33,403 bases of DNA from Aquabacterium sp. (lineage in GTDB: Bacteria; Pseudomonadota; Gammaproteobacteria; Burkholderiales; Burkholderiaceae_C): NCBI GenBank assembly GCA_023150345.1, contig JAKLLB010000046.1, positions 1 to 33,403 on the forward strand, written 5' to 3'. The notes below the pieces were generated by a model. That model had not been told where the DNA came from, searched no databases, and saw only the letters and a program-made list of their open reading frames with translations. The position numbers were made by a program, and so were the translations under genes. Numbering within the stretch: position 1 is the stretch's first letter; each line of letters begins with the position of its first letter. This document shows, piece by piece, positions 3,491 to 20,661 of this stretch.

Positions 3491-4342
3491 TTGAACCAAA
3501 GCACTCCCTTGCCGAGCGCCTCTCTGCTGAACCAGCTTCTGCGGTTCACCCCCACGGCGCGCATGTTTTTCTCGGGGAATCTCTGTACCCTGACGCAGGG
3601 ATCCGAGGCTGACGGCCTCAAGCAGGGGACGATGCACCTGCTCAGTCGCGGCGAGCTGCAACTGACGCGCAAGGGCTTTGCGCCGCTGAACGTGCGAGCA
3701 CCCAGCGTGCTGTTGCTTCCCCGCGCGTTGGAGCACTGGGTTCAGGGCTCAGGGCCGCAGGGGGTGGACCTGATGTGCGCCACCCTCAGTGAGTTGGCGC
3801 CGCCGCTGGACATGATCTTGCCGGACGTCACGGTGATTGACTTGAACGCCACGTCATCGCTGCAGCGACCGGTAGAGCTGCTGTTCGAGGAGGCCGAGGC
3901 GCGTGCTTTCGGCTATCGGGCAGCGATCGACCGCCTGCTGCAATACACCTTCGTAGTGCTTGTGCGACACCTGATTGATCGGCAACTGTTGTCCGGCGGT
4001 GTGCTGGAGGCCATGGTCGACAGCCGTCTGGGTGTGGTGCTGTCCATGCTGCACGAATCGCCAGAGTACGACTGGACGCTTGACAGCATGGCGGAGCTGG
4101 CGCACCTGTCCCGGTCTGCCTTTGCCCTGCGCTTTGCCCAGGTGGTGGGCATGCCGCCGTTGACCTACTTGACCCACTGGCGCATGGCGGTTGCCCGCAA
4201 CCTACTCGCGCAAGGGCAGGCGGTGAAGGCGGTGGCCGCTCAGGTGGGCTACGGTAATGCCACCGCATTCGCGCGAGCGTTTCAACGGGCCTCGGGGCAA
4301 TCGCCCAGCGCTTGGCAGATGGAGCATCTGAGTCAGCCGTAG
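3491..4342 (+). CDS. RclR-like AraC-family redox regulator
   Basis: A 283-residue one-component regulator. The N-terminal cupin-type sensor domain (about 1-165) leads to a C-terminal double helix-turn-helix of AraC type (about 190-278, with LAHLSRSAFALRF and VAAQVGYGNATAFARAF). The whole protein has only two cysteines, C32 and C96. By my eye alignment they fall where E. coli RclR has its HOCl-sensing C21 and C89: NLCTL versus NCVL, and LMCATL versus IVCGTL. This suggests a thiol-switch sensor of reactive chlorine or electrophiles. The first usable start is a TTG at 3491 behind a weak AGG, and a stop lies 21 bases upstream. The ATG at 3563 would remove the helix that aligns with RclR. It is codirectional with, and 124 bases upstream of, msrA and the oxidant-defence genes, its likely target. 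The family is certain; the RclR role is inference. Confidence 0.88.
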   Translation: MNQSTPLPSASLLNQLLRFTPTARMFFSGNLCTLTQGSEADGLKQGTMHLLSRGELQLTRKGFAPLNVRAPSVLLLPRALEHWVQGSGPQGVDLMCATLSELAPPLDMILPDVTVIDLNATSSLQRPVELLFEEAEARAFGYRAAIDRLLQYTFVVLVRHLIDRQLLSGGVLEAMVDSRLGVVLSMLHESPEYDWTLDSMAELAHLSRSAFALRFAQVVGMPPLTYLTHWRMAVARNLLAQGQAVKAVAAQVGYGNATAFARAFQRASGQSPSAWQMEHLSQP

Positions 4343-4466
4343 GTCCATCGGGCCCCGGTTCTGGACGATCGGTGGCGTGATAAGGACGCCGAATGCCGTT
4401 GTGCTGTGCCGAACGGACCCGACTTCAGGTTCAATGCCTTGAGGCAGAACTTTGAAGGAGATGGCG
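4343..4466 (+). promoter_or_regulatory. Probable promoter region of the oxidant-defence operon
   Basis: This is the only sizeable gap (124 bases) between the AraC-type regulator and the fourteen genes behind it, so the main promoter and the regulator's operator most likely lie here. I could not find a convincing -35/-10 pair or a clear AraC half-site pair; AATGCC occurs twice, near 4392 and 4433. AAGGAG at 4455-4460 is the ribosome binding site of msrA. The call rests on position and context only. Confidence 0.4.
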
Positions 4467-4976
4467 ATGAAACCGACTGAAAAAGCAGTCTTGGCCGGCG
4501 GTTGTTTCTGGGGCATGCAGGACCTGGTGCGCAAGCTGCCTGGTGTGATACGCACTCGTGTGGGCTACACCGGCGGCGATGTGCCCAATGCCACCTACCG
4601 CAACCACGGCACCCACGCTGAGGCGTTGGAGGTGGAGTTCGATCCCACGCAGACCAGCTTCCGTGACCTGCTGGAGTTCTTTTTCCAGATCCACGATCCG
4701 AGCACCCCCGGACGCCAGGGCAACGATCGCGGCAGCTCCTACCGTTCGGCCATTTTCTACACCTCGGACGAGCAGCTGACCACGGCGCAGCAGACCATTG
4801 CCGATGTGAATGCCTCGGGTTTGTGGCCGGGCAAGGTGGTCACTGAGGTCGCGCCTGCGGGGCCGTTCTGGGAGGCCGAACCCGAGCATCAGGACTACTT
4901 GGTCAAGCACCCAAACGGCTACACCTGCCACTACCCCCGCGCGGGCTGGAAGCTGCCGCGCCGCGAGATCGGCTAA
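4467..4976 (+). CDS. msrA: Peptide-methionine (S)-S-oxide reductase
   Basis: Reduces the S epimer of methionine sulfoxide, free or in proteins, with thioredoxin as electron donor. The 169-residue protein begins with the family signature GGCFWG, whose C13 is the catalytic sulfenic-acid-forming cysteine. It continues with [12 protein letters not shown], the FFQIHDPST motif and YRSAIFY. A second cysteine near the C-terminus (YTCHYP) may act in resolving. Two ATGs, at 4461 and 4467, follow AAGGAG at 4455-4460; only 4467 has normal spacing. It is the first gene of the run after the regulator and pairs functionally with the MsrB domain at 7124-8095, which handles the R epimer. Confidence 0.96.
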
Positions 4977-5061
4977 CGGCCAAAGCCTCTGAATGACCGG
5001 GTTCGGCGCGCCAGCTGGCACGCCGCCTCGATGGGTCTGTTTTCTTCCTGAGGAGATGGTG

Positions 5062-5550
5062 ATGCATTCTCAGTGCATTCAACAGGCGCCCGAGTTGCGG
5101 GTGCCTTGGTGGATCGACGGTGAAGGACGCAGCATGGCGCCGCTGAAGCTGGCCGATTTGGGTGACGGGTTCAAGGTGATTTTCTGTTTCCAGCACTGGT
5201 GTTCGGGCTGCCACAGTCGCGGCTTTCCAACTTTGCAGAAGCTGATCAAGGCGTTGGGCGATCGTGGCTTCGCGTTTGCCGCGGTTCAGACCGTGTTCGA
5301 GGGCGCCGAGTCCAACACCTTCGAGCGCCTGCGCGAGACGCAGCTGCGCTACGGCTTGAACATTCCGTTCGGACACGACCCTGCGATCGGACGCGCGTCG
5401 TCGCTCATGGCGGACTACGGGACGCGGGGCACGCCGTGGTTTTTGGTGATCGATCCGCTGGACGAGGTACTCTACAGCGACTTCGAGCTCGACGAGCGGC
5501 AGCTGATCGGGGCGTTCGGCGCTTCGAACGATGGTCTCAAGGCGGCCTGA
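5062..5550 (+). CDS. Thioredoxin-like redoxin, TlpA/AhpC-TSA type
   Basis: A 162-residue cytoplasmic protein (no signal peptide) with a thioredoxin fold and an active-site WCSGC (C47, C50) preceded by FCFQH. Later it has the cis-proline strand in RGTPWFLVIDP. It is clearly paralogous to the N-terminal half of the MsrB fusion two genes on: both share AAVQTVFE, SNTFERL/SNTWERM, IPFGHD and GTPWF. The likely role is a dithiol-disulfide reductase or a thiol peroxidase that feeds electrons to MsrA and related enzymes. GAGGAG at 5050-5055 favours the ATG at 5062 over the ATG at 5056. The gap to msrA is 85 bases and selO follows after 4. A peroxiredoxin role is possible, but the CxxC favours a reductase. 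Confidence 0.85.
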   Translation: MHSQCIQQAPELRVPWWIDGEGRSMAPLKLADLGDGFKVIFCFQHWCSGCHSRGFPTLQKLIKALGDRGFAFAAVQTVFEGAESNTFERLRETQLRYGLNIPFGHDPAIGRASSLMADYGTRGTPWFLVIDPLDEVLYSDFELDERQLIGAFGASNDGLKAA

Positions 5551-5554
5551 AGTC

Positions 5555-7087
5555 ATGCGTGCGTCCACACCAAAGGCCGTGTCGGAGCCGAAGACGCCGG
5601 GGACGGGCCCGGCGTTTCGGCTGCCGTTTGACAACAGCTTCTTCCGGGACATGCAGGGGTTCTATGTGCCTTGGAAGCCCGAGCCGTCCCCGGCCCCGGC
5701 CTGGGTGCAGTTCAACGACGCCCTGGCGCTGGAGCTGGGGCTGGAGCCGGCGACGCTGAAGTCTGCGACCGGTCTGGCGTGGCTGTCCGGCGTGGAAATG
5801 CCGGCTGAGGCGGCGCCGCTGGCGCAGGCCTACGCGGGACACCAGTTCGGCCAGTTCTCGCCACACTTGGGGGATGGCCGCGCCTTGCTGCTCGGGGAAC
5901 TCATCGACACGGCAGGACAGCGTCGGGACCTGGCCCTCAAGGGGTCGGGCCGTACGCCGTTTTCGCGCCGTGGCGATGGCAAGGCGGCACTGGGCCCGGC
6001 GCTGCGCGAGTACCTCATGGGCGAGGCCATGCACGCGTTGGGCATTCCCACGACGCGTGCGCTGGCGGTGATCCGGACCGGTGAGCGGGTGAACCGCGAG
6101 GGCTCGCCCCCCGGGGCGATCTTGGTGCGCGTGGCGGCCAGCCACTTGCGGGTGGGCACTTTTGAGTTCTTCGCGGCGCGGGAGGAGGAGGTGATGCTTC
6201 GGCGGCTGCTCGACTATGCCGTGGCGCGGCATGACCCCGCCCTCGCCAAGCTTTCCGACAAGCCCATTCCGATGCTGGAGGCCGTCTGTGAGCGGCAGGC
6301 GCAGCTGATTGCACGCTGGATGGGCGTGGGCTTCATCCACGGGGTGATGAACACCGACAACATGAGCATTTCGGGCGAGACCATCGACTATGGTCCGTGT
6401 GCGTTCATGGAGGGTTTCGATCCGGCCACGGTGTTCAGCTCGATCGACCGTCAGGGGCGATATGCCTACGGCCAGCAGCCGGCCATGGCGCAATGGAACC
6501 TGGCCCGTCTGGCCGAAGCGTTGCTGCCGGTTCTGGACGCCCGCGATATCGACGTCGTGGAACGGGTGGAACAGGTGGTGGCCGGGTTTGCCGTGCGCTT
6601 TGACCGGCATTGGACCGGGCAGCTGCGCGCCAAGCTGGGCTTGGCCGCTGAAGAGCCGGACGACCGCGCCCTGGCGGACGACTTCCTGCAGCTGCTGCAG
6701 CGGGAAAAGGTGGACTTCACGCTGGCGTTCCGCCTCCTGTCCGACGCCATCACGGGGCCGGATGCCGCACTGCACGACCTGTTCGGACGGGAGCGCCCGG
6801 CGCTCTCGGACTGGCTGGCGCGCTGGCGCCAGCGCATGGCCCGGGAGGGAAGGACCTTGCAGGACTGCGCCGCAACGGCGTGGTCGGTCAATCCCTTCGT
6901 GATCCCGCGCAATCACCAGGTGGAGGCGGCGCTGTCGAGTGCCGTGGACGAGGCCGACCTCGGTCCGTTCGAGCGCCTGCTGGCGGTGCTGGGGCGGCCG
7001 TACGAGACGGTGGAGTCCGCGCGGCCATTCACGCTGCCGGCCTCGCCCGAAGTGGCCGCAGCCCACCGCACCTTCTGCGGCACCTGA
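5555..7087 (+). CDS. selO: Protein adenylyltransferase SelO (YdiU family)
   Basis: A 510-residue pseudokinase-fold enzyme. The family transfers AMP from ATP to Ser, Thr or Tyr of target proteins and is linked to redox homeostasis. Family marks seen here are FDNSFFRDM, YAGHQFGQFSPHLGDGRA, LALKGSGRTPFSRRGDGKAA, VRVAASHLRVGTFEFFA, and the metal and catalytic region HGVMNTDNMS followed by DYGPCAFME. The protein ends in FCGT, so it keeps the conserved cysteine three residues from the end that is selenocysteine in some eukaryotic SelO proteins; here it is a plain TGC codon. The ATG at 5555 lies four bases after the redoxin stop. An ATG at 5531 would overlap that gene by 20 bases and adds poorly conserved residues. 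Confidence 0.95.
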   Translation: MRASTPKAVSEPKTPGTGPAFRLPFDNSFFRDMQGFYVPWKPEPSPAPAWVQFNDALALELGLEPATLKSATGLAWLSGVEMPAEAAPLAQAYAGHQFGQFSPHLGDGRALLLGELIDTAGQRRDLALKGSGRTPFSRRGDGKAALGPALREYLMGEAMHALGIPTTRALAVIRTGERVNREGSPPGAILVRVAASHLRVGTFEFFAAREEEVMLRRLLDYAVARHDPALAKLSDKPIPMLEAVCERQAQLIARWMGVGFIHGVMNTDNMSISGETIDYGPCAFMEGFDPATVFSSIDRQGRYAYGQQPAMAQWNLARLAEALLPVLDARDIDVVERVEQVVAGFAVRFDRHWTGQLRAKLGLAAEEPDDRALADDFLQLLQREKVDFTLAFRLLSDAITGPDAALHDLFGRERPALSDWLARWRQRMAREGRTLQDCAATAWSVNPFVIPRNHQVEAALSSAVDEADLGPFERLLAVLGRPYETVESARPFTLPASPEVAAAHRTFCGT

Positions 7088-7123
7088 TTGGGGTACCCAA
7101 CGATTTCTGAAAGGAGACTTCGC

Positions 7124-8095
7124 ATGACCACAACGAAACAGGAACCCGGTGTCCTTGGCGAAGCGGCCGCTCCCCTGGGTGTGACCCGGTGGGTGGACGC
7201 GTCGGGCCAGGCGCTGGAACACTTCGACCTGGACCGCATGCCCGGCCGGTTCAAGCTCATCTTCTGTTTTCAGGACGCCTGCCCGGGGTGCCATGCGACC
7301 GGCTTTCCGGCGCTTGCCCGGGTGGTCGACGCGTTTCGGGGGAGCGACTTCGTCGGGTTCGCCGCAGTCCAGACCGTGTTCGAGGACTTCGGTTCGAACA
7401 CCTGGGAGCGCATGCTGGCCAATCACTCCCGCTACGCGCTGGGCATTCCCTTCGGGCACGACGCCGGTGACGAACAGGACGGCGCGGGTTCGGAGCTGAT
7501 GCGCCGCTACCGCAACGGCGGCACACCCTGGTTCATCCTGATCGATCCCGATGGCAGAGTGGTCTACAACCATTTCCGAATCGACGCCGACAAGCTCGTC
7601 ACCTTTCTCAAGCGGCTGGAAAACGAACCGGCGGCACCGGAGCCTGGGCCCGACATGTTGACTTGGAAAGGAGTGATTCAACTGGTGGAAACGGGCAACC
7701 CGACGCCACCGCGCCGAGTTGAGCGCAGCGAAGCCGAGTGGGCCCAACAGCTGACGCCCGAGCAGTTCCGAATCACGCGGCTCAAGGGCACCGAACGGGC
7801 GCACAGCTCCTCGATGTGTACGCTGTTTTCGCCCGGGATCTACCGGTGCGTGTGCTGCGGCACTGAACTATTCGATGCGTCGACCAAATATGACAGCCGC
7901 AGCGGCTGGCCCAGCTTCACGCAGGCCATTGCCCCGGGTCTGGTGGGCTATCACAGAGACAACAGCCACGGCATGGTGCGGGTGGAGACGACGTGCAACG
8001 TCTGCGACGCCCACCTGGGTCACGTGTTTCCCGACGGACCCAAGCCCAGCGGTCTGCGCTACTGCATCAACGCCCTGGCACTGGAGAAAGCATGA
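7124..8095 (+). CDS. msrB: Redoxin-MsrB fusion (methionine-(R)-sulfoxide reductase)
   Basis: A 323-residue two-domain protein. Residues 1-170 form a thioredoxin-like domain with ACPGC (C53, C56) and GGTPWFILIDPDG, a paralogue of the redoxin at 5062-5550. Residues 175-323 are a complete MsrB domain: zinc cysteines C242/C245 and C291/C294, catalytic C314 in LRYCIN, and a resolving C232 in SSMCTLF. MsrB reduces the R epimer of protein methionine sulfoxide and needs a dithiol donor, so the fused redoxin probably recycles it in cis. AAAGGAG at 7110-7116 supports the ATG at 7124. The gene follows selO by 36 bases and its stop overlaps the next start (ATGA). No signal peptide is seen, so it should act in the cytoplasm. 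Confidence 0.94.
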   Translation: MTTTKQEPGVLGEAAAPLGVTRWVDASGQALEHFDLDRMPGRFKLIFCFQDACPGCHATGFPALARVVDAFRGSDFVGFAAVQTVFEDFGSNTWERMLANHSRYALGIPFGHDAGDEQDGAGSELMRRYRNGGTPWFILIDPDGRVVYNHFRIDADKLVTFLKRLENEPAAPEPGPDMLTWKGVIQLVETGNPTPPRRVERSEAEWAQQLTPEQFRITRLKGTERAHSSSMCTLFSPGIYRCVCCGTELFDASTKYDSRSGWPSFTQAIAPGLVGYHRDNSHGMVRVETTCNVCDAHLGHVFPDGPKPSGLRYCINALALEKA

Positions 8096-9312
8096 GCAGC
8101 GAAAAGGTAGGCTTCGCTGGCAGCAGCCAGGGTCTGCTGGTGGGTGTCTTGGAACGCCCGGACCATGCACCGTTACAAGCCCTGGCGGTGTTTGCCCACT
8201 GCTTTACCTGCGGAAAGAACTCTCTCGCCGCGACCCGCATCAGCCGGGCGCTGGCTCAGCAGGGCATCGCCACGCTGCGCTTTGATTTCACCGGTCTGGG
8301 CGAGAGCGAAGGCGACTTCGGGCGCGGTGGCTTTTCGTCCAGCGTGGCGGACATTGTGGCGGCGGTGCACTGGATGCAGAGCACGATCGGCATGCCTGCA
8401 CTGTTGGTCGGACACAGCCTGGGGGGGACGGCGGCCATCGCGGCGGCTGCCCGCCTCGACGGCATACGGGCGGTTTGCACGCTGGGCGCACCCGCGACGG
8501 CCGACCATGTGCTTCGTCACTTCGGTCCGACCAAGTCCGAAGAGGATGGGCAGATCCAGGTCGACCTGGGCGGCCGGGCGTTCAGGATCGCGCCGGCCTT
8601 CATTGAAGAGCTCCAGGCCCAAGCCCACGAGAACCCGGTCAAGGGGCTTCGCGCGGCCTTGCTGGTTATGCACGCGCCAAGTGACGCGGTGGTGGACATC
8701 GGCGAGGCACAGGACCTGTTCAAGGCGGCCAGACATCCTAAGAGTTTCATCAGCCTGGACGATGCGGACCATCTGCTCACGCGCCCGGCCGATGCGCAGT
8801 ATGCGGCTGACCTGATTGGCGCCTGGGCCTCGCGGTTTCTGCCGATGCGAGCCGAGCGAAACGATGCGCCGTCGGACCTTCGTGCGGGCGAGGTGTGGGT
8901 GGGGGAGCACGATCACGCCTTCTGGCGATCGATGCGAGCAGGTCCGCACCACCTCGACGCCGATGAGCCCAAGGAAGTGGGTGGTGGCGAACGCGGGCCC
9001 GATCCTTATGAACTTCTGCTGATGTCGCTGGGCGCCTGCACGTCCATGACATTGCGCCAGTACGCCAAGCGAAAAGGCTATGCGCTCAAGGATGTCCAGG
9101 TCAGGTTGCGTCATGAGCGCGCGCACGCGACCGATTGCCAGGAGTGCGGGGATCGCTCGGGACAGGTTGACCACGTCACGCGGCAGCTCCTGCTGAGCGG
9201 ACCGTTGAGTGAAAGCCAGCGACAGGACCTGTTGCGCATCGCCGATCGTTGCCCCGTGCATCGAACGCTGGAGAACCATCCGGTGATCACCACCACACTG
9301 ATTCGGGACTGA
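8092..9312 (+). CDS. Bifunctional alpha/beta hydrolase - OsmC family protein
   Basis: A 406-residue fusion. Residues 1-265 are an alpha/beta hydrolase with nucleophile elbow GHSLGG (S109), an acid loop in HAPSDAVVD and a histidine in DDADHLL. Residues 270-406 are an OsmC/Ohr-type domain with the two peroxidatic-site cysteines in SLGACTSMT and ADRCPVHRTL, plus an extra DCQECG pair. OsmC-type proteins reduce organic hydroperoxides. The hydrolase may free acyl or lipid hydroperoxide substrates, but this is inference. This domain pairing is known in proteobacteria. The start overlaps the msrB stop as ATGA, indicating translational coupling, and DUF427 follows after 32 bases. Confidence 0.93.
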   Translation: MSSEKVGFAGSSQGLLVGVLERPDHAPLQALAVFAHCFTCGKNSLAATRISRALAQQGIATLRFDFTGLGESEGDFGRGGFSSSVADIVAAVHWMQSTIGMPALLVGHSLGGTAAIAAAARLDGIRAVCTLGAPATADHVLRHFGPTKSEEDGQIQVDLGGRAFRIAPAFIEELQAQAHENPVKGLRAALLVMHAPSDAVVDIGEAQDLFKAARHPKSFISLDDADHLLTRPADAQYAADLIGAWASRFLPMRAERNDAPSDLRAGEVWVGEHDHAFWRSMRAGPHHLDADEPKEVGGGERGPDPYELLLMSLGACTSMTLRQYAKRKGYALKDVQVRLRHERAHATDCQECGDRSGQVDHVTRQLLLSGPLSESQRQDLLRIADRCPVHRTLENHPVITTTLIRD

Positions 9313-9344
9313 TCCCAACCACACACAAACGAAGGAGACGGAGC

Positions 9345-9626
9345 ATGAGAGCCATCTGGAAAGGCACCACCATCGCTGAGAGCGATGACATCGTGGAAGT
9401 TGAAGGCAACGCCTATTTCCCACACGACGCGTTGCGCCCGGAACATTTCAAACCAAGCGATACGCACACCACCTGTCCATGGAAGGGGCGGGCCAGCTAC
9501 TACGACGTCGTGGTCGGCGAAGACGTGAACGCTGACGCGGCGTGGTACTACCCGTCGCCCAAGGCTGGTGCGGAGGCGGTGACCGGCAGGGTGGCGTTCT
9601 GGCGCGGTGTCGAGGTGCGGCCATGA
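9345..9626 (+). CDS. DUF427 domain protein
   Basis: A 93-residue single-domain protein of the DUF427 family, small beta-rich cytoplasmic proteins of unknown biochemical role. Recognisable pieces are AIWKGTTIAES near the start, YFPHDAL, the TTCPWKGRASYYDV core and AWYYPSPKAGA. A good GAAGGAG at 9331-9337 precedes the ATG at 9345. Its stop overlaps the start of the RclA-like reductase (ATGA), so the two are translated together. The context of thiol and peroxide enzymes is the only hint of function. Confidence 0.9.
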   Translation: MRAIWKGTTIAESDDIVEVEGNAYFPHDALRPEHFKPSDTHTTCPWKGRASYYDVVVGEDVNADAAWYYPSPKAGAEAVTGRVAFWRGVEVRP

Positions 9627-11032
9627 GCGGGGAACAGAGGTTCGACGCGATCGTGATCGGAGCCGGTCAGGCCGGTCCCTTTCTGGGCGCGACACTCGTT
9701 GCCCGGGGTATGAAGGTGGCGCTCATCGAGGAGCGTGACCTGGGTGGTACCTGTGTCAATCGGGGCTGCACCCCAACCAAGACCCTACGCAAGTCGGCTC
9801 GTGTGGCTCACATGGCGCGCCGGGCCAGCGAATTCGGTGTGCAAACCGGGTCGGTCCAGGTCAACTTCAGGGCAGCGATGGAGCGCATGCAACGCCGGGT
9901 GGAGGAGGCTCGCTCTGGCCTGCAGGCCTGGCTGGGCCAGTTGGAAGGACTCACCATCATCAAGGCGCGCGGTCGCCTGGCGGGCCGTGAAGGCGAACAG
10001 TTCGTGGTGCTGGCCGGCGAGCATCAGCTGGTGGCGCCCAAGGTGGTGCTGAACACCGGCACACGTCCCTTTGTTCCGCCGGTGCCTGGGCTGGACGAGC
10101 TGCCGTTCCTGGACAACGAACGGCTGTTGGCGCTGCGTGAATTACCGTCCAGGCTGGTGATCATCGGCGGTGGATACATCAGCCTGGAGATGGCTCAGAT
10201 CTTTCGGCGGCTGGGAAGTGAGGTTGCCATTCTGGAAACAGGGCCCCGCCTCACGGCCCGCGAGGACGAGGACATTGCAGCCGCTGTGACCGGAATGCTG
10301 ACAGCGGAAGGCATCGAAGTGAACACCGGCGTGCGCATTGAGCGGGTCGGCAAGGCGGACAACGACGCTGGCGTGCGGGTGCAGTTGGCTGGTGGCCGCA
10401 GCGTGGATGGCAGCCACCTGCTGGTGGCCACCGGGCGAATACCGAACACCGACTGTCTGGGCCTGGAAACGGTGGGCCTGGAGGTCAGTGCGCGAGGCTA
10501 CCTGGTCACCAACGACCGGCTCGAAACCGCGGTTCCCGGCATCTGGGCGCTGGGTGACATCAATCAGCGCGGGGCCTTTACCCACACCAGCTACCACGAT
10601 CAGGACATCGTGGCGGAGAACCTGGCCGGAGGGCAACGCAGCGCCGCCGCGCGCGTCGGCATTTATGCCATGTTTACCGATCCTCCGCTGGCCCACGTCG
10701 GTCTTTATGAGGCCGACGCGCGAAAACTCGTGACCGAAGGGCGACGCATTTCCCAGGCGGTTCACGCCATGAAGGACGTCAGTCGCGCGAAGGAAGAAGG
10801 CGAAACCGTGGGCAAGATCAAGCTCCTCATCGATGAGGACAGTGGTCATTTCCTCGGAGCGACCATGCTCGGGATCCAGTCGGACGAGATCATTCAGGCG
10901 ATCGGTCTGGTGATGGCCAGTGGCGGCACCTGGAAGTTGGTCCGGGATGCATTGCCCGTTCACCCGACGGTCACCGAGTTCCTGCCCACCATCATTGATC
11001 GACGCAAGCCCTTGACCGCAAGTTCTGGGTGA
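9623..11032 (+). CDS. RclA-like FAD-dependent pyridine nucleotide-disulfide oxidoreductase
   Basis: A 469-residue flavoprotein of the lipoamide dehydrogenase/mercuric reductase group. Order of parts: FAD-binding GAGQAG (residues 13-18), redox disulfide GGTCVNRGC (C44, C49), NAD(P)H-binding GGGYIS, second FAD motif IWALGDI, and the dimerisation domain ending in a catalytic HP near H447 followed by E452. It lacks the N-terminal heavy-metal domain and the C-terminal cysteine pair of true mercuric reductase, so MerA is unlikely. The shape fits E. coli RclA, which protects from hypochlorous acid and reduces copper. With an RclR-like regulator at the head of the same run, an RclA-type role is a good inference. 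Substrate is unproven. Confidence 0.9.
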   Translation: MSGEQRFDAIVIGAGQAGPFLGATLVARGMKVALIEERDLGGTCVNRGCTPTKTLRKSARVAHMARRASEFGVQTGSVQVNFRAAMERMQRRVEEARSGLQAWLGQLEGLTIIKARGRLAGREGEQFVVLAGEHQLVAPKVVLNTGTRPFVPPVPGLDELPFLDNERLLALRELPSRLVIIGGGYISLEMAQIFRRLGSEVAILETGPRLTAREDEDIAAAVTGMLTAEGIEVNTGVRIERVGKADNDAGVRVQLAGGRSVDGSHLLVATGRIPNTDCLGLETVGLEVSARGYLVTNDRLETAVPGIWALGDINQRGAFTHTSYHDQDIVAENLAGGQRSAAARVGIYAMFTDPPLAHVGLYEADARKLVTEGRRISQAVHAMKDVSRAKEEGETVGKIKLLIDEDSGHFLGATMLGIQSDEIIQAIGLVMASGGTWKLVRDALPVHPTVTEFLPTIIDRRKPLTASSG

Positions 11033-11049
11033 GCCGGAGGACCCACACC

Positions 11050-11658
11050 ATGCCCATCAACCGCTCATTCAGCGGCCGCAATCGCGATGTCCACAACCAC
11101 GGCGGTCGACTTCCGCCAGGACAGTCCCTGACGGAAGGTTTTCCCGTGCTGACTGCGGGCCCCACCCCAAAAGCCTTGGCGCTTGGCGATTGGCGCTTGA
11201 CCTTGAAGGTCGGTGTGCGGCCGGTTCGCGTTTGGACCTGGAGCGAATTCCAGGCCCTGCCCCAGACCGAGCAGGTGGTCGATATCCATTGCGTTACCAC
11301 CTGGTCGAAATTCGACACCCGCTGGCGCGGTGTGACGTTGGACACCTTGTTGCAGGCGGCCGGACTGGAAGCGCCCACGCCTTGGGTGTTGGCGCATTCT
11401 CAGGACGGCTACTCCACCAACGTGCCGTTGGCCGATCTGACACAAGGGCGCGCAATGATCGCAACGCACTACGACGACCGACCGCTCGCGCCCGAGCACG
11501 GGGGACCGGCACGCCTGTTGGTGCCGCATCTCTACTTCTGGAAGTCGGCCAAGTGGGTCAATGCGCTGCAGTTCAACGAGCGCGACGAGGCCGGGTTCTG
11601 GGAACTGCGGGGCTATCACATGCGAGGCGACCCTTTCAAGGAAGAGCGCTATGGATGA
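11050..11658 (+). CDS. Sulfite oxidase-like molybdopterin oxidoreductase (YuiH type)
   Basis: A 202-residue protein consisting of only the molybdopterin-binding domain of the sulfite oxidase superfamily. The molybdenum-ligating cysteine is C81 in DIHCVTTWSKFDTRW, which is diagnostic. Later YSTNVPLADL and the PHLYFWKSAKWV motif follow. There is no Tat signal, haem domain or dimerisation domain, so it is a cytoplasmic YuiH-like enzyme rather than a periplasmic MsrP. GGAGG at 11036-11040 supports the ATG at 11050; a GTG at 11029 would overlap the upstream stop. Its stop overlaps the start of the ferredoxin-reductase-like gene by 8 bases, and that gene is its probable electron partner. Substrate is unknown; an S-oxide fits the context. 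Confidence 0.92.
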   Translation: MPINRSFSGRNRDVHNHGGRLPPGQSLTEGFPVLTAGPTPKALALGDWRLTLKVGVRPVRVWTWSEFQALPQTEQVVDIHCVTTWSKFDTRWRGVTLDTLLQAAGLEAPTPWVLAHSQDGYSTNVPLADLTQGRAMIATHYDDRPLAPEHGGPARLLVPHLYFWKSAKWVNALQFNERDEAGFWELRGYHMRGDPFKEERYG

Positions 11659-11863: not shown

Positions 11864-11869
11864 GGGCTC
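11864..11869 (+). repeat. Target-site duplication, left copy of GGGCTC
   Basis: Six bases immediately outside the left inverted repeat of the IS1634-family element, matched exactly at 13839-13844 on the other side. A duplication of 5-6 bp is usual for this family. Confidence 0.9.
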
Positions 11870-13838
11870 CCCGAGTTCGACACCTCCGACCGGTTTTGAC
11901 GCCATCTTCAGCCCCCGAAGCCAGTGGAATCAAGGACTTGGCGATGGTGATGCCGAGCGGTGTGTAGTCTAAACTTTGCAAAGCACGGTAGTTCACTGTT
12001 TGCGCTGACCTCCGTACAATGCGGCCATGTTCGTCAAGGTCACGCGCTCCAAAGGCCACAGCTACGCCCAGCTGGTGGAGTCGTTCCGCGACGAGCGCGG
12101 CCAGCCCCGCCAGCGCAACGTGATGACGCTCGGGCGCGTGGACGAGAACGGCGGCCAGGTCGAGCGGTTGCTGCAGTCGCTGCTCAAGGCGCGCGGCCTG
12201 CCGGCGCTCGATTCGGCCGCACCGCAGGTGCGCTTCGAGTCCGCGCTGTCGCTCGGCGATGTCTGGGCACTCGACCAGCTCTGGCGCGAAGTGGGCTTCG
12301 ATGCGCTGTCCGGCGTGTTCCGGCGTGCGCGCTACACCACGCCGGTCGAACAGGCGATCCGGATGATGGTGTTCAACCGGCTGTGCGACCCCGACTCCAA
12401 GCTCGGCGTGCTGCGCTGGGCGCAGACGGTGAGCATGCCCGGGGTGGAGTGCTCGAAGTTCACCCATCAGCAATTGCTGCGCGCCATGGACGCACTGATG
12501 GATCACCAGGACGAGGTCGACGCCTGCGTGGCCCAGCTGCTGCGTCCGCTCATCGACCAGTCGCTGTCGGTGGTGTTCTACGACCTCACGACCATCCGAG
12601 CCGCAGGCCTGAGCGAGCAGCCGGGGGATGTGCGCCGGCACGGTATGAGCAAGGAAGGCGTGGTTGCGCGCCAGTTCCTGCTGGGGGTGGTGCAGACGGC
12701 CGAGGGCCTGCCGATCCACCATGAGGTGTTCGACGGCAACGCCAGCGAAGGCCAGACGTTGCTGCCGCTGCTCGAGCGGCTGCTGCAGCGCTTCCCACAC
12801 ATCCGCCGCCTGGTGCTGGTGGCCGATCGGGGCCTGCTGTCGCTGGACAACCTGGAGGCTCTGGAGGCGTTGAAGCTGCCTGCCGGCGCCGAGGGCCCGC
12901 GCGCGCTGGAGTACATCCTGGCCGTGCCGGGGCGGCGCTACGGTGAGTTCGAGCCGGTGCTGCAGGACCTGCAGGCGCAGGTAGCTGACGAAGCGGCCCG
13001 TGTTCAGGCTCTGCGCGAGGCGGGGCAGCCGGCCACGCCGGTCGAGACGGTAGGTGAGACCGTCTGGCAGGGGCGCCGCCTGGTGGTGGCGCACGCGCCC
13101 GAGCGCGCGGCCGAGCAGGCGGCGCTGCGGCGCGCGCGCCTGGCCGAGTTGCAGGCCAGGGCCCAGGCGCTGGCCGACAAGCTCCAGGCACAGGACGGTG
13201 GCCAGCGCAGCCGCGGCCGGGCGCTGTCGGACTCGGGCGCCAAGGCGCGCTTCTTCCACGAAGTGGCCGACGCGCATATGGCCAGCATCGTCAAGGTGGA
13301 CCTGAAGGCCGAGTTGTTCCGCTACGAGATCGACGACAAGGCGCTCGCACGTGCCGAGTTGATGGACGGCAAGCTGCTGCTGGTGACCAACGTGGCCGAC
13401 CTGGAGCCCGTCGAGGTGTTGCAGCGCTACAAGGCGCTGGCCGACATCGAGCGCGGCTTCAGGGTGCTGAAGTCCGAGATCGAGATCGCGCCGGTGTTCC
13501 ACCGGCTTCCCGAGCGCATCCGGGCTCACGCCGCCATCTGCTTCATGGCGCTGATCCTGTACCGGCTGATGCGTGCACGCCTGAAGCTCGCCGGCCACAG
13601 CGCCTCACCCGAGACCGCCCTGGCGCAGTTGCGCCGCATCCAGCGCCACACCGTCACGATCAACGACAGCGCGCCCATCAGCGGCGTGTCCGCCATCAAC
13701 CAGGAACAGGCCACCTTGCTGGCCTCACTGCAACTAAAGAAGCCTTCGCCCGACGCTCAGATCAGCCTGCTGTAGTGGCAATTCGCAAGGCCAGACTATG
13801 CGAATCAAGGACTTATGGCGGTTGGCGTCGAACTCGGG
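11870..13838 (+). mobile_element. IS1634-family insertion sequence, complete
   Basis: A 1969-bp element with inverted ends: CCCGAGTTCGAC at 11870-11881 and its complement at 13827-13838, with weaker matching further in. It is flanked by a perfect 6-bp target duplication, GGGCTC, at 11864-11869 and 13839-13844. It carries one transposase gene in the same direction as the host operon. The intact duplication and ends point to a recent, simple insertion. A 13-bp sequence, GAATCAAGGACTT, occurs near both ends in direct orientation. Confidence 0.93.
12027..13775 (+). CDS. IS1634-family transposase
   Basis: A 582-residue DDE transposase of the IS4 superfamily, full length for IS1634/IS1549 relatives. 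The catalytic acidic residues can be placed as D186 in VFYDLTTI, D267 in LVADRGLLS and E475 in ALADIERGFRVLKS, with the RLPERIRAH stretch typical of the family after it. A long insertion with coiled-coil character (about 315-400) separates the second D from the E. The gene looks intact, so the element may be active. It reads in the same direction as the surrounding operon and could help transcription continue into egtB and egtD. Confidence 0.96.
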   Translation: MFVKVTRSKGHSYAQLVESFRDERGQPRQRNVMTLGRVDENGGQVERLLQSLLKARGLPALDSAAPQVRFESALSLGDVWALDQLWREVGFDALSGVFRRARYTTPVEQAIRMMVFNRLCDPDSKLGVLRWAQTVSMPGVECSKFTHQQLLRAMDALMDHQDEVDACVAQLLRPLIDQSLSVVFYDLTTIRAAGLSEQPGDVRRHGMSKEGVVARQFLLGVVQTAEGLPIHHEVFDGNASEGQTLLPLLERLLQRFPHIRRLVLVADRGLLSLDNLEALEALKLPAGAEGPRALEYILAVPGRRYGEFEPVLQDLQAQVADEAARVQALREAGQPATPVETVGETVWQGRRLVVAHAPERAAEQAALRRARLAELQARAQALADKLQAQDGGQRSRGRALSDSGAKARFFHEVADAHMASIVKVDLKAELFRYEIDDKALARAELMDGKLLLVTNVADLEPVEVLQRYKALADIERGFRVLKSEIEIAPVFHRLPERIRAHAAICFMALILYRLMRARLKLAGHSASPETALAQLRRIQRHTVTINDSAPISGVSAINQEQATLLASLQLKKPSPDAQISLL

Positions 13839-13844
13839 GGGCTC
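13839..13844 (+). repeat. Target-site duplication, right copy of GGGCTC
   Basis: Six bases immediately outside the right inverted repeat of the IS1634-family element, identical to 11864-11869. Deleting the IS and one copy restores an open frame across the ferredoxin-reductase-like gene. Confidence 0.9.
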
Positions 13845-14408
13845 TATGAGCTTGGCATTGAGCGTTTGGACGATGGCGAAGTATCCACCTGGTTTCACGA
13901 CAAGGCCCAGCACGGCGAAACGATTGAAGTCCTCGGACCGGTTGGAGGTCATTTTGTGCTTGACGAGTCGAACACACGACCAGCCTTGCTGATTGGGGGA
14001 GGATCTGGCGTCGTTCCCCTTTTGTCCATGGCAGCGCAACGCGTGGGTGCATACAGCCAAGCGCATACAACGCTGTTGGTTGCCGCACGCCATCTTGACG
14101 AAGTGTTGCTCTGGCCCACCCTGCAGCGATGGGAAGCGTTTACGCCGCGGTTTCGCAGCCGACTGGCGCTCTCGCGGGATACCTGTGCCCCGCGCGCACA
14201 GGACCACGTTGGCCGCATTGATGGAGCCGATGTTGCTTGGGCATTGCAGCAATTGGGTGATGTGGCGACCGAATCTGCGCAGGTTTTCATCTGCGGGCGT
14301 AATGACTTTGTCGAGTCCATCGTTCATATGGTCACCGGGCTAAATGTGCCCGAGGTCTCCATCCGCACCGAGCGCTTCGGAAGTTGACTCTCTTTTTTCT
14401 CATCTGCC

Positions 14409-15617
14409 GTGACACCTGAAGACATCCGCCTAACCCGATACGTCTCTGTCCGTTCGCGCAGCGAACGTCTGTGTGCCCCTCTGAGTGCCGAGGACCATGT
14501 TCCCCAACCGGTTTCCGACGTCAGTCCGCCGAAGTGGCACTTGGCCCACACCACGTGGTTCTTCGAGACTTTTGTCCTCGCGAAACAACAGCCGGACTAT
14601 CGACTGTTCCATCCTCTGTATGGCTACCTGTTCAACAGCTACTACGAATCGGAGGGCGCTCACCTGGCACGCCCGCAGCGAGGGAGCTTGAGTCGCCCGA
14701 CGGTGGCTGAGGTGATGGCGTATCGCGCGCATGTGGACGAGTCCATGCGCCGTATGCTGAAGGAACCACTGGAGCCCGCGGTCGCGGCCTTGGTAGAGCT
14801 GGGCATGCAGCATGAACAACAGCATCAGGAGTTGCTGATCACAGACATCAAGTACATCCTGGGCCACAACCCATTGCATCCGGCGTATGACCCTCTGGGC
14901 ATCGGTCCCCAAGATGTGACGGCCGAACATGATGGAACCTGCCCACCACTGGACGATTGGCTTAGCGTCGAAGGGCAGACGATTCGCATGGGCCACCAGG
15001 GGCCAGGGTTCGCCTTCGACAACGAGTCGCCATCGCATTTGGCGCTCATTCAAGGAGTAGACATCCGTGTGGCGCTAGTCACCAATGATGAATACCTTCA
15101 GTTCATGCGCGACGGAGGATATCAGCGCCATTCGCTCTGGCATGCGGAAGGCTGGGACTGGGTGCAAACGCTTAAATTCCGTGCGCCGATGTACTGGCAG
15201 CCCGACCCTAACCAGCCTGACGGATGGGGTCATTACACGCTCCAGGGGGTGATGCCGCTGACCAGTCAGGCACCAGTCACGCATGTCAGTTACTACGAGG
15301 CACACGCTTTCTGCGATTGGGCGGGGTGGCGATTGCCCACCGAGTTCGAGTGGGAAGCAGCGGCAAGCCGGTTCGACTGGGGGCGTCGATGGGAATGGAC
15401 GCGCAGTGCCTATCAGCCCTATCCCGGTTTTGCCCGCAGCGAGGGCGCAGTGGGCGAATACAACGGGAAGTTCATGGTGAACCAGCAGGTCTTGCGCGGA
15501 GCGTCCTGGGCCACATCGCCGGGCCACGCCCGTTTGACATACCGGAACTTCTTTCACGCTCCGTTGCGTTGGCAGTTCACGGGCATCCGTCCTGTTCGCT
15601 CGCGGGAGTCCGCATGA
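14409..15617 (+). CDS. egtB: Ergothioneine biosynthesis sulfoxide synthase EgtB
   Basis: Non-haem iron enzyme that uses O2 to join trimethylhistidine (hercynine) to cysteine or gamma-glutamylcysteine as a sulfoxide, the key C-S step in ergothioneine synthesis. The 402-residue protein has an N-terminal DinB-type domain with the probable iron ligands H47 (HLAHTTW) and H135/H139 (HEQQHQE), plus FNSYYES and RGSLSRP. A C-terminal FGE-sulfatase domain with LPTEFEWEAAA and LRGASWATSP follows. The start is a GTG at 14409, 21 bases after the disrupted reductase gene. Its stop overlaps the egtD start (ATGA). No egtA, egtC or egtE lies in the window, so the thiol donor and the final C-S lyase are unknown. 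Confidence 0.95.
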   Translation: MTPEDIRLTRYVSVRSRSERLCAPLSAEDHVPQPVSDVSPPKWHLAHTTWFFETFVLAKQQPDYRLFHPLYGYLFNSYYESEGAHLARPQRGSLSRPTVAEVMAYRAHVDESMRRMLKEPLEPAVAALVELGMQHEQQHQELLITDIKYILGHNPLHPAYDPLGIGPQDVTAEHDGTCPPLDDWLSVEGQTIRMGHQGPGFAFDNESPSHLALIQGVDIRVALVTNDEYLQFMRDGGYQRHSLWHAEGWDWVQTLKFRAPMYWQPDPNQPDGWGHYTLQGVMPLTSQAPVTHVSYYEAHAFCDWAGWRLPTEFEWEAAASRFDWGRRWEWTRSAYQPYPGFARSEGAVGEYNGKFMVNQQVLRGASWATSPGHARLTYRNFFHAPLRWQFTGIRPVRSRESA

Positions 15618-16498
15618 CTGATCGGGACAGACTGACCATGGCGCTGCCCGAGTACTACCTCACACGCCTTGAGCACGAGCTGCTGCGCTCACGCGCGGAT
15701 GAGCTTTCCCGGTGGATAGATCCTCGGTGCAGCCCGATCGATCTGATTGAACTGGGCAGCGGCGACGGGGCCAAAACGCTGTCGCTGTGCCAGGCACTGG
15801 CGCAACGTGAAGTGGATTGCATCTACAGGCCTATGGATGTGTCCGCACACGCCCTAGCGGATCTGAGCCGCCGCTTTGACACGTACCTCCCCCGCATGGC
15901 CATCGAACCGGTGCTGGGAGACTATTTCGAGCATTGGCCTCAGATTGCCGAAGGGCGACGCCAGGTTGCAATGTTGCTGGGCAGCAATCTGGGCAACCTC
16001 GACGAACACGGTGCCGTCAAGCTGCTGCAGCGGGTGCATTCGCATTTGCGCCCGGGTGACCTTGTGCTGCTTGGTCTGGATCTGGTCAAGGACCCGGCCA
16101 TGTTGCGCGCAGCATACGACGATTCACAGGGCGTGACCGCTGCGTTCAATTTGAATCTGCTGACGCGGTTGAATCGCGAGTTGGGCATGGACTTCGATCT
16201 GACGAAATTTCGGCACTACGCCAGCTACTGTCCGCTGGAACACGTGGCCAGAAGCTTTCTGGTGAGCCAAGTTGACCAGGTGGTCCACAGCAGAACCCTT
16301 GACCGAGGGTTTGTATTCCATGCCGGGGAGACCATCTATACAGAGCAATCCCAGAAATACTCCCTGGCTTCAATCGAACACCTCGCACGCCGAAGCGGGT
16401 TTGACAACACCTGCACCCTGACCGACCCCCGAGGCTGGTACGCCATCACCGTCTGGCACCGGCTACCGTTCACCCCAACGCAACAAACGTCGACCTGA
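15614..16498 (+). CDS. egtD: L-histidine N-alpha-methyltransferase EgtD, short form
   Basis: Makes hercynine by three SAM-dependent methylations of histidine. The 294-residue protein has ALPEYYLTRLE at residues 10-20, the SAM-binding ELGSGDGAKT (46-55), the LLGSNLGNLDE region, the LNLLTRLNRELG segment and a C-terminal IYTEQSQKYS that matches the substrate-site E-x-S motif. Typical EgtD has about 320 residues and starts with a segment containing a P-K-x-F-Y-D motif before the EYY motif. That segment is missing here, and the upstream frame inside egtB does not supply it. The ATG at 15614 is set by its overlap with the egtB stop. The call as the egtB partner is firm; whether the short N-terminus is fully active is open. 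Confidence 0.92.
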   Translation: MTDRDRLTMALPEYYLTRLEHELLRSRADELSRWIDPRCSPIDLIELGSGDGAKTLSLCQALAQREVDCIYRPMDVSAHALADLSRRFDTYLPRMAIEPVLGDYFEHWPQIAEGRRQVAMLLGSNLGNLDEHGAVKLLQRVHSHLRPGDLVLLGLDLVKDPAMLRAAYDDSQGVTAAFNLNLLTRLNRELGMDFDLTKFRHYASYCPLEHVARSFLVSQVDQVVHSRTLDRGFVFHAGETIYTEQSQKYSLASIEHLARRSGFDNTCTLTDPRGWYAITVWHRLPFTPTQQTST

Positions 16499-16511
16499 AA
16501 AAGGAGTCCTA

Positions 16512-16958
16512 ATGAGCAACAAGACCCATCTGCGCCAGACCATGCTGGACCTTGCCGAAGGGCGCCTGCGGTTTGCTGAACAGACCTATGCGCAATACCT
16601 GGTCGGTGCGGCGGGCCGCGGAGATGAACCCAGTGAAAGCGATGCGGCGTCGCGGGCCGTCAACAATGCCGCTCTGGCGCAGGCGTTCGAATGCCCCATT
16701 CACGATCATCAGGAGGCCCTGGAAGTCTTACGTCAGATCGATTTCGGTCCCCGGGATTCGGTGGAGACAGGCGCCGTGGTTCGCATCGACGGGCGTTGGT
16801 TCGTGATTGCGGTTGCTAGCGATGCCTTCCAGTGCGACGGCAACACCTACATGGGAATTTCCACCCAGGCGCCCATCTACGCAGCGATCGCAGATGCCCG
16901 AGCCGGTGATGTTGTCAGCTTCCGGCAACGCGAACTGCACATAGAGGAAGTCTTGTGA
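16512..16958 (+). CDS. GreA/GreB C-terminal-domain-like protein
   Basis: A 148-residue protein. The last 70 or so residues (from VETGAVVRIDGRWFVIA through ISTQAPIYAAIADARAGDVVSF to the C-terminal beta strand) match the pattern of the FKBP-like C-terminal domain of transcript-cleavage factors GreA/GreB. The N-terminal half is predicted helical but lacks the acidic tip (D-E/D pair) I would expect in a true Gre coiled coil. It may bind RNA polymerase near the secondary channel as a stress modulator, but that is inference. A strong AAAAAGGAG at 16498-16506 precedes the ATG at 16512. It sits between egtD and the MOSC gene in the same direction. Confidence 0.72.
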   Translation: MSNKTHLRQTMLDLAEGRLRFAEQTYAQYLVGAAGRGDEPSESDAASRAVNNAALAQAFECPIHDHQEALEVLRQIDFGPRDSVETGAVVRIDGRWFVIAVASDAFQCDGNTYMGISTQAPIYAAIADARAGDVVSFRQRELHIEEVL

Positions 16959-16981
16959 TGCACCTCATTCGAGTCTGAACG

Positions 16982-17518
16982 ATGGGCGGCACGCTGCGCG
17001 ACTTGGTCCGGCGCTTTCATGGCACAGGTCGACTTGGTGCCATCGTTCTGCGCCCGGATCGCCTCAAGGACGCTGTGTCCGTGCAGGAGGCCAGGGCCGA
17101 ACCGGGTCTCGGGCTGATTGGCGATCACCGCTCCCTGCGGCTTCGTCAGTCGGATGCGCAACGCCATCGCGAGCTGAGTCTGATCCAGGCTGAGCACCTC
17201 AGCTTGCTCGGGGTCTGGACGGGGCAAGCCCCAATTGCCCCGGAGCGTTTGCGGCGCAACCTCGTGATCTCGGGGATCAACATCGCCGCGATGCATTCAC
17301 CTTTCCGGGAAGAGCGCTTTGTCTGGCGAATTGGCGGTTCGGTCCGCATTGAAATCACGGGGCCATGTCCTCCTTGTTCACGCATGGAGGACGAGCTCGG
17401 TGAAGGCGGTTACGCCGCGCTGCGTGGTCACGGGGGCGCCACGGCACGGATCGTCGTAGGTGGCGTGCTACGGGTTGGAGATACCGTTAACCTTGACGTT
17501 GAATCCACCGTGGGCTGA
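16982..17518 (+). CDS. MOSC domain protein
   Basis: A 178-residue single-domain MOSC protein. The domain is related to the C-terminus of molybdenum cofactor sulfurase and is found in enzymes such as YiiM and YcbX that reduce N-hydroxylated compounds with a molybdenum cofactor. The conserved cysteine lies in ITGPCPPCSRMED, followed by GYAALRGHGGATARIVVGG and LRVGD, typical of the domain end. There is no ferredoxin domain, so electrons must come from elsewhere. The ATG at 16982 follows a stop four bases upstream in another frame. A six-codon frame (16958-16978) overlaps the previous stop and may be chance. It matches the molybdoenzyme seven genes earlier in cofactor theme. Confidence 0.88.
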   Translation: MGGTLRDLVRRFHGTGRLGAIVLRPDRLKDAVSVQEARAEPGLGLIGDHRSLRLRQSDAQRHRELSLIQAEHLSLLGVWTGQAPIAPERLRRNLVISGINIAAMHSPFREERFVWRIGGSVRIEITGPCPPCSRMEDELGEGGYAALRGHGGATARIVVGGVLRVGDTVNLDVESTVG

Positions 17519-17523
17519 GAGCC

Positions 17524-18456
17524 ATGATCGAAGCAGAGCGTACGCCTGGGTTCCTCCATCTTCTCCAGATGACCGGCGGTGCGTCGTGGTTGCACATGTG
17601 CATCCACCACCGCGAGACGGAAGGTTTTCTCTCGAGCGCGACCGGCCTGGACAAGCTGATCGCCGCAGCGATGGTCTCTGAAGATACCCGGTCGCGGTTG
17701 CGCGTCCACGGGCAGGGTGTGATGGTTCTGCTCAAAGCGATGCATCTGAGAGCTGATGGAGTGGGGCATCCAGAGGACATGGTGTCCATGCGAATCTGGA
17801 TTGATGAGCGTCGGGTTATCACGACCCGCGAGGAGGATGTGGATCCCATCCTCGAACTTGCAGAAGACATCTCTCAGGGGCGCGGCCCTGCAACGCCAGG
17901 TGACTTCCTTTGCGATCTCATCGAAGAGCACCTCGCGGAAGTTTCCGAGCAGGTCGAGATGCTGGAGGATGGGGTGGATCTGATCGGCGGCCTTCTGGTT
18001 CAGCACCAGACGGAAGCGGCATGCCCGAGCATGGCCAATACCCAGACCGCGATCTCTGGCTTTCTTCGTCATCTTGGCCCCCAGCGAGCCGTTCTTCAAA
18101 CGTTGACAACTCTCGTCGTCCCGCCGCTGAATATAAATCACCGAGGCCGACTGGAGGAGCACCTGAACCAGCTGTTGCGGTTGCTCGAAACGCTGGAGAA
18201 TTTGCGTGACCGTATCGATATCCTCAGTGACCAGGCAAACCGCATTCAGGAGCGACAGCTGAATCAAAGCTCTTATGTTTTTGCCGTGGTATCCACAATC
18301 TTCTTGCCCTTGAACTTTGTCACTGGCCTGTTTGGCGCCAATCTTCTGGGACTGCCGTTCGCAGATGCCACCAATGGCTTCTGGGTGTTGGTAGGTCTTT
18401 GCTTACTAATGAGTGTTGGGTTGGTAGCGGTCTTTCGCTGGTTCAAATGGCTTTAG
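17524..18456 (+). CDS. ZntB/CorA-family divalent cation transporter
   Basis: A 310-residue inner-membrane protein of the CorA/ZntB superfamily. A long cytoplasmic N-terminal domain (1-245) is followed by two C-terminal membrane helices: VFAVVSTIFLPLNFVTGLFG, and FWVLVGLCLLMSVGLVAVF before a basic FRWFKWL tail. The pore motif that is GMN in CorA and GIN-like in ZntB reads GAN here (GLFGANLLGLP), an uncommon variant. ZntB-type members move Zn2+; supply or efflux of Zn2+ could matter for the zinc site of MsrB, but this is inference. The start at 17524 is five bases after the MOSC stop. It is the last gene of the run; the next gene is convergent. Confidence 0.88.
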   Translation: MIEAERTPGFLHLLQMTGGASWLHMCIHHRETEGFLSSATGLDKLIAAAMVSEDTRSRLRVHGQGVMVLLKAMHLRADGVGHPEDMVSMRIWIDERRVITTREEDVDPILELAEDISQGRGPATPGDFLCDLIEEHLAEVSEQVEMLEDGVDLIGGLLVQHQTEAACPSMANTQTAISGFLRHLGPQRAVLQTLTTLVVPPLNINHRGRLEEHLNQLLRLLETLENLRDRIDILSDQANRIQERQLNQSSYVFAVVSTIFLPLNFVTGLFGANLLGLPFADATNGFWVLVGLCLLMSVGLVAVFRWFKWL

Positions 18457-20660: not shown

Positions 20661-20661
20661 G

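Follow-up and report, generated by a model that had tools for sequence, protein, structure and literature searches.

We analysed contig JAKLLB010000046.1 of Aquabacterium sp. in its entirety (33,403 bp, hereafter the window; the parent genome comprises 4.58 Mb in 251 contigs) and found an AraC-type regulator followed by 14 genes, all on the plus strand and spanning 3491-18456, that appear to form a damaged copy of a mobile oxidant-defence module. We favour, with moderate confidence, the reading that reactive chlorine oxidises the cysteines of the regulator and thereby switches on the genes from msrA to corA. With start codons adopted from an annotated plasmid copy (L031), the genes from msrA to corA are spaced by -8 to 36 bp at 12 of 13 junctions (the two junctions touching a split reductase gene were measured from its outer ends), and larger gaps of 85 bp and 124 bp separate msrA from the redoxin gene and the AraC-type gene from msrA, respectively. 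The preliminary description of this DNA, made from its letters alone, was right about the regulator, the 14 co-directional and mostly tightly spaced genes and their coordinates, but overlooked an insertion sequence (IS), a loss within egtD, the mobility of the set, and the adjoining glnS and uracil-DNA glycosylase (UDG) genes.

Comparison by tblastn showed that the order msrA, redoxin, SelO, redoxin-MsrB, hydrolase-OsmC, DUF427, FAD oxidoreductase, molybdenum enzyme, FNR, EgtB, EgtD, 148-aa protein and MOSC is kept in an Aquincola tertiaricarbonis plasmid (L104), a Rubrivivax metagenome-assembled genome (MAG; L127) and a Pseudomonas aeruginosa plasmid (L105), where twelve to fourteen genes stand in a single order and the proteins are 46-86% identical to those of the window. 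In L104, CorA comes next after MOSC, and additional genes separate EgtD from MOSC; in L127, CorA lies elsewhere in the locus. Neither a recognised redoxin gene nor this regulator was found in L105. Diaphorobacter nitroreducens (G010, L036/L137) is syntenic from glnS to the UDG gene at 90-93% DNA identity, with the module genes at full length, and ratios of nonsynonymous to synonymous substitution (dN/dS) against its locus L137 were 0.02-0.24 across 16 genes (10 from the window and 6 from its plasmid twin L031). The kept order in divergent loci, together with the low dN/dS, indicates that the cluster is a selected unit, and the conserved co-linear set proposed earlier was borne out. Three further loci (L128, L131, L136) hold a shorter variant in a different arrangement. 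Paired cytochrome P460 genes were also seen in two divergent copies, L104 (14500-16248) and L127 (3425-5193). The features of the window around the module are as follows.

225..1214, minus strand: PEP mutase/isocitrate lyase family gene, prpB-like, whole in the window (Pfam PEP_mutase)
1562..3421, minus strand: glnS, glutaminyl-tRNA synthetase (GlnRS) with YqeY fusion, divergent from the regulator (TIGR00440, 638 bits, cut-off 426)
3491..4342, plus strand: AraC-type regulator (Cupin_6 and HTH_18)
4421..4466, plus strand: conserved msrA leader, possible hairpin, present also in regulator-free copies
4467..4976, plus strand: MsrA (TIGR00401, 164 bits, above the cut-off of 108)
5062..5550, plus strand: redoxin, thioredoxin-fold (Pfam Redoxin slightly below and AhpC-TSA at the cut-off; redoxin family in the plasmid annotation)
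5555..7087, plus strand: SelO protein adenylyltransferase (PF02696, 379 bits; NF000658, 541 bits, above the cut-off of 431)
7124..8095, plus strand: redoxin-MsrB fusion (TIGR00357, 158 bits, above the cut-off of 113)
8092..9312, plus strand: alpha/beta hydrolase-OsmC fusion (Pfam domains)
9345..9626, plus strand: DUF427 protein (Pfam)
9623..11032, plus strand: FAD pyridine nucleotide-disulfide oxidoreductase, related to RclA and MerA, under the RclA cut-off
11050..11658, plus strand: small molybdopterin oxidoreductase, sulfite oxidase-like (PF00174, 126 bits; plasmid annotation)
11651..11869, plus strand: FNR-type reductase, N-terminal piece (weak FAD_binding_6; blastn to the unbroken L031 gene)
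11870..13838, plus strand: insertion sequence (transposase open reading frame (ORF) 12027-13775, DDE_Tnp_1)
13839..14387, plus strand: FNR-type reductase, C-terminal piece (NAD_binding_1)
14409..15617, plus strand: EgtB (TIGR03440, 508 bits, above the cut-off of 360)
15614..16498, plus strand: EgtD, shortened near its start (TIGR03438, 245.8 bits, under the cut-off of 290.9)
16512..16958, plus strand: 148-aa protein, possibly GreA/GreB-like (annotated so in L104)
16982..17518, plus strand: MOSC domain protein (Pfam)
17524..18456, plus strand: CorA-family transporter, ZntB-like (PF01544, 172 bits; NF007092, 156 bits, under the cut-off of 292)
18579..19244, minus strand: UDG superfamily gene, outside the mobile segment, retained in two Diaphorobacter loci

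Two SelO equivalog models scored under their cut-offs (389 of 850 and 364 of 900 bits), and the window molybdenum enzyme reached 37 bits with the MsrP model NF003767, below its cut-off of 207. The FAD enzyme, which the preliminary description had called RclA, does not carry that name by its scores, with 300 bits against the NCBIfam RclA model NF040477 (cut-off 740) and 33% identity to Escherichia coli RclA. Its best solved chain is 6kgy (230 bits), listed as a disulphide oxidoreductase, which we take to be RclA, followed by mercuric reductase at 215 bits. Three members of the 148-aa protein family scored between 11.8 and 14.2 bits with the Pfam GreA/GreB model PF01272 (gathering score 26.9), and relatives at below 60% identity occur in 110 plasmid records. 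Redoxin and MsrB are fused in L104 and L105 too. In L045, L048 and L061, UDG-family genes 63-65% identical to the one at 18579-19244 are found within a few kb of RclR-like paralogues, and in L127 a UDG-family gene is located between the regulator and msrA.

The cluster matched 46 plasmid records, 20 of which are near-identical (mean identity at least 95% over at least 4 kb), and a redoxin-MsrB alignment led to 30 genome loci, comprising 21 of near-identical DNA, one at 90-93% and eight that are divergent. Identity in the near-identical genome loci is mostly 97-100%, with single segments at 96.7% in L126 and 92.6% in L118. The loci include records not marked as MAGs from Thauera (two contigs from one strain), Xenophilus, Paenacidovorax, Zwartia, Limnobacter, Acidovorax and Diaphorobacter, L134 being the same plasmid as L031, whereas some MAG labels, among them Pseudoxanthomonas, Competibacteraceae, Dechloromonas and 'Bacteroidetes', may result from misbinning. 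Copies of near-identical DNA have spread between genera. Window homology starts at 400, inside the prpB-like gene, in 11 of the 30 genome loci and stops at 18540 in 14 of them; the prpB-like gene itself is cut in plasmids. Transposase genes of IS1071 flank both sides in L031, L032 and L182 and one side only in L035, and in L031 the right IS1071 is preceded by a partial transposase gene with an IS21-family annotation. The simplest account of these shared edges would be a single capture between IS1071 copies, followed by spread. No IS1071 is present inside the window, whose ends are contig ends, and homology continues beyond 18540 into the UDG gene in the window, L126 and L137. Since the window runs past 18540 into the UDG gene, lacks IS1071 and has a whole prpB-like gene, its arrangement may predate the capture. 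Against a clean pre-capture picture, a full IS1071 lies about 2.2 kb to the left of the module glnS in D. nitroreducens L036, so that this organism does not offer a clean pre-capture locus.

Between the window and L109, 104 of 106 mismatches fall within 3500-5500, a pattern that reads as a mosaic. An identical Tn3-type unit with toxin-antitoxin, chlorite dismutase (Cld) and cupin genes is inserted at two different module sites in two Achromobacter plasmids (L032, 12074-17945; L182, 7849-13723), and L182 has lost SelO and has a cut redoxin gene. The L031 plasmid carries, past its right IS1071, a second, diverged set at 33016-38315 (DUF427, FAD oxidoreductase, molybdenum enzyme, FNR, EgtB and EgtD; 61-83% identity). 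In the Comamonas testosteroni copy (L179), a DUF417 gene and a second AraC-type gene follow closely after the right IS1071 (24771-26164).

In the window itself, an IS of 1969 bp interrupts the FNR-type reductase gene. Homology to plasmid copies by blastn ends at 11869 and restarts at 13839, the plasmid alignment overlaps by 6 bp, and the element is flanked by 6-bp direct repeats (11864-11869 and 13839-13844); DNA similar to its transposase is annotated as IS1634 family. The reductase gene is full length in L031, L035 and 19 of the 21 near-identical genome loci, the contig ending before or inside the gene in the remaining two, and its frame in L032 is broken in another manner. Alignment to plasmid copies further revealed that 93 bp (31 codons) are gone in frame near the start of egtD, including a WFYD motif common to the solved EgtD 4pim, and the L031 copy scores 296.1 bits with TIGR03438, above the cut-off that the window protein misses. 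The egtD deletion may be an assembly error. Given the IS in the reductase gene and the EgtD loss, the downstream part of the operon is probably impaired in this genome, where the molybdenum enzyme is probably left without its reductase and EgtD without activity. These two lesions leave the idea of an intact programme in this genome unsupported.

The regulator has just two cysteines, at residues 32 and 96, and both places hold cysteine in 63 of 66 aligned regulator rows, E. coli RclR included (tolerances of two and one columns; some rows represent one genome twice), the first cysteine being missing in the other three. Cys96 aligns with RclR Cys89; Cys32 falls on RclR Cys21 in one alignment, while a second alignment places the two residues two columns apart. 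RclR is described as being activated through a Cys21/Cys89 disulfide under hypochlorous acid (HOCl) (PMC7464077). Orthologous regulators (at least 53% identity) adjoin glnS and the cluster in three lineages, namely the window type, L104 and L127, in line with the earlier proposal of a two-cysteine RclR-like regulator next to the set. We inspected 60 regions around regulator matches in the family, out of well over 100 matches listed, and none of the 57 regions of regulators at or below 41% identity matched MsrA, SelO, EgtB, EgtD or the molybdenum enzyme (tblastn, E 1e-8); some held weak redoxin, MsrB-fusion, FAD-enzyme, FNR, MOSC, DUF427 or UDG matches, and one held an 81% glnS. With none of these five found in the 57 paralogue regions, the cluster is linked to this regulator and not to the regulator subgroup. 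The preliminary description had named, as a finding that would speak against it, a set never standing beside the regulator; this is the case for the paralogues, whereas the orthologues do stand beside it.

On the reading that we favour, HOCl or chloramines would oxidise Cys32 and Cys96 of the activator, and the oxidised activator would switch on the genes msrA to corA as one transcription unit. Methionine sulfoxide would then be repaired by MsrA and by the redoxin-MsrB fusion, while the redoxin, the OsmC domain and the FAD disulfide reductase would remove oxidants and restore thiols. EgtB and EgtD would supply an ergothioneine-type thiol, SelO would adjust proteins, and oxidised S- or N-compounds would be reduced by the molybdenum enzyme with its NAD(P)H-fed FNR partner, and by the MOSC protein. 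The regulator and the Tn3-type insertions with chlorite dismutase and cupin genes suggest reactive chlorine as the oxidant.

A number of observations weigh against this scheme. The regulator scores 89 bits with the RclR model NF040475, under its equivalog cut-off of 400 (Aquincola orthologue, 81 bits; E. coli RclR control, 557 bits), so that by the curated cut-off it is RclR-like and not RclR. Having these two cysteines is typical of the subgroup at large, whose other members sit away from the cluster, so that the pair does not by itself tie the regulator to chlorine. An intact regulator stands beside the operon in only three of the 20 near-identical plasmid records (L031, L032 and L182); its control is therefore not obligatory, and the one thiol switch of the preliminary description is unsupported as an obligatory control. 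Inspection by eye of the upstream stretches of divergent copies found no shared operator, and a promoter scan found no sigma-70-like promoter before msrA. Broken copies extend beyond the window to the reductase frame in L032 and to the redoxin and SelO genes in L182. Finally, the P460 pairs of L104 and L127, together with MOSC, may leave room for an N-chloro or N-hydroxyl substrate.

This last point leads to an alternative that we consider unlikely, in which the module answers chloramines, N-oxidised or N-hydroxylated compounds or chlorite instead of free HOCl, with the molybdenum enzyme-FNR pair and MOSC as its core and the Msr proteins as repair. MOSC and P460 proteins handle N-hydroxyl compounds, MOSC and the molybdenum enzyme-FNR pair are retained in L104, L105 and L127, and the chlorite dismutase insertions would fit as well; however, no P460 gene was found among the annotated ORFs of the window or in the L105 stretch, and Klebsiella, Serratia and Aeromonas plasmids carry the Msr-redoxin-SelO part alone. 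A further possibility, to which we give little credence, is that the operon is constitutive or driven from upstream and that the target of the AraC gene is another one, for instance glnS. It draws on the 15 of 20 near-identical plasmid records that begin at window position 4414, 53 bp before msrA and without an adjacent regulator, on the truncation of the regulator after about residue 198 in two more (L035 and L181), and on L105, where the AraC-type gene has no cupin domain. The same RelB/DinJ-type antitoxin gene precedes msrA in the four of these 15 records whose junction was inspected (L033, L034, L178 and L179). One of the 15, NZ_CP043574, carries an intact regulator and glnS some 40 kb away on the plasmid, the other 14 having one matching place only. 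On the other side stand the orthologous regulator beside the cluster in three lineages, its retention at 98% in 18 of the 21 near-identical genome loci (lost in L138, cut in L135, too short in L115) and its dN/dS of 0.10; the shared junction and the shared truncation probably represent two events, not many. An accidental pile-up of stress genes gathered by transposition, with no common programme, would agree with the transposons throughout, the mosaic edges and the shorter rearranged variant of L128, L131 and L136, but it is very improbable in view of the purifying selection, the short gaps and the single gene order kept at 46-86% identity in three other lineages.

Near the regulatory region, the msrA leader can fold (z -1.9 and -2.7), and the promoter/terminator scan gave fewer matches than shuffles, its sole promoter-like match lying inside the IS. 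On a Comamonas plasmid, a YafQ-type toxin gene lies by the displaced regulator-glnS pair (L180, 2188-5318) and a RelB-type antitoxin gene by msrA (L179, 7745-8029), as if a toxin-antitoxin locus had been split by rearrangement.

The divergent glnS-regulator pair of the window recurs in L104 and L127, and a second GlnRS divergent from the regulator in three lineages is new here. A second glnS copy is located elsewhere in each of G000, G010 and G183, and the shorter-variant loci L128, L131 and L136 hold glnS as well. In a tree of 38 GlnRS sequences, the window type groups with the single-match gene of G137 (94% identity). A single clade of all island GlnRS was rejected (p-AU 0.0002 in the approximately unbiased test; 8 rows), as was a clade of the window type with L104/L127 (p-AU 0.005), whereas a tree joining L104/L127 with the L128/L131/L136 GlnRS was not rejected (p 0.37). 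These were quick trees with long branches, the groups being defined after the tree was seen, and they point to recruitment of GlnRS at least twice, not demonstrably three times.

We also considered and rejected glnS as the plain flank of a housekeeping locus: no such cluster was present in ten glnS regions (the seven nearest single-match glnS and the other glnS of G000, G010 and G183), three of which (L167, L168, L172) contain SelO homologues at 55-58%. Nor did hardening of the enzyme find support: the KMSKS-loop Thr of the window GlnRS, where E. coli GlnRS presumably has Met, is shared by the other same-family glnS copies inspected, and Cys/Met counts were not clearly different. In all three genomes tested (G000, G010 and G183), a single additional homologue of MsrA, of SelO and of EgtD is encoded outside the module (32-59% identity). 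As the tested enzymes are second copies of cellular ones, the module looks to be a plug-in duplicate set of cellular functions. We tentatively raise the idea, itself more doubtful than probable, that GlnRS is the step at which translation is vulnerable to this oxidant, that the mobile reactive-chlorine operon carries its own GlnRS for this reason, that selection has recruited a spare GlnRS into such modules independently at least twice, and that widespread chlorine disinfection may spread the module. If these proposals are true, a repair, scavenging and thiol-synthesis set moving as one piece would make oxidant tolerance transferable and not chromosomal, across water and clinical bacteria; the recurrent spare GlnRS would be a hint, open to testing, that such oxidants act on one tRNA synthetase, and the regulator-bearing and regulator-free versions would constitute a natural experiment on the importance of thiol-switch control.

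Among known systems, the cluster resembles the E. coli rcl operon (RclR-RclA-RclB-RclC) in its two-cysteine AraC-type activator, FAD disulfide reductase and reactive chlorine context. Unlike that operon, it scores below the RclR and RclA cut-offs, has about thirteen further genes, is mobile and shows no DUF417 (RclC) among its Pfam matches. The IncU pFBAOT6-type cluster (L107) and a Sphingomonas plasmid (L106) share MsrA, MsrB, hydrolase-OsmC, CorA and a 148-aa relative (45%), and hold DUF417 and glutathione S-transferase (GST) genes as well; they differ in their LysR regulator, their gene order and an unfused MsrB, and no EgtB, EgtD or SelO match was obtained in the stretches examined. IS1071 composite transposons carry catabolic genes and are spread among Comamonadaceae and relatives. 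The module shares such a spread, and in L031, L032 and L182 it too lies between IS1071 copies, but what it carries is a tRNA synthetase together with oxidant defence. Msr genes in mobile chlorite dismutase neighbourhoods have been described by Barnum and Coates 2022 (PMC9751292); these neighbourhoods are similar in their Msr, peroxide and thiol functions on mobile DNA, their reactive chlorine link and their Cld-cupin pair. They differ in that Cld is not part of the set here and is present as an insertion in L032 and L182, and the terms 'SelO', 'AraC' and 'ergothioneine' are absent from the main text of that article. Among the papers listed in searches of the open-access literature (PubMed Central, which most subscription papers lie outside), none described the cluster.

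The remainder of the contig holds other stress genes and mobile elements. Hsp20, a ClpK-like gene, two phospholipase D (PLD)-type ORFs, FtsH, PsiE and a DegP-like gene at 22328-32530 identify this part as belonging to the transmissible locus of stress tolerance. That locus, like the module, consists of mobile stress genes and lies on the same contig, but its genes are of chaperone, protease and envelope stress types (Pfam) and include none of the families of the cluster. Of the stretch 18457-33403, the plasmid records with the best coverage match about 70%, at roughly 92% identity, and a match to at least a portion was seen in 1447 records. The PLD gene is in two ORFs (25875-26609 and 26643-27326), which perhaps reflects a break. 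An ALIL pseudoknot (Rfam RF01497, 101.5 bits) lies at 21493-21609 on the minus strand in an IS3-type element, where it is expected for frameshifting.

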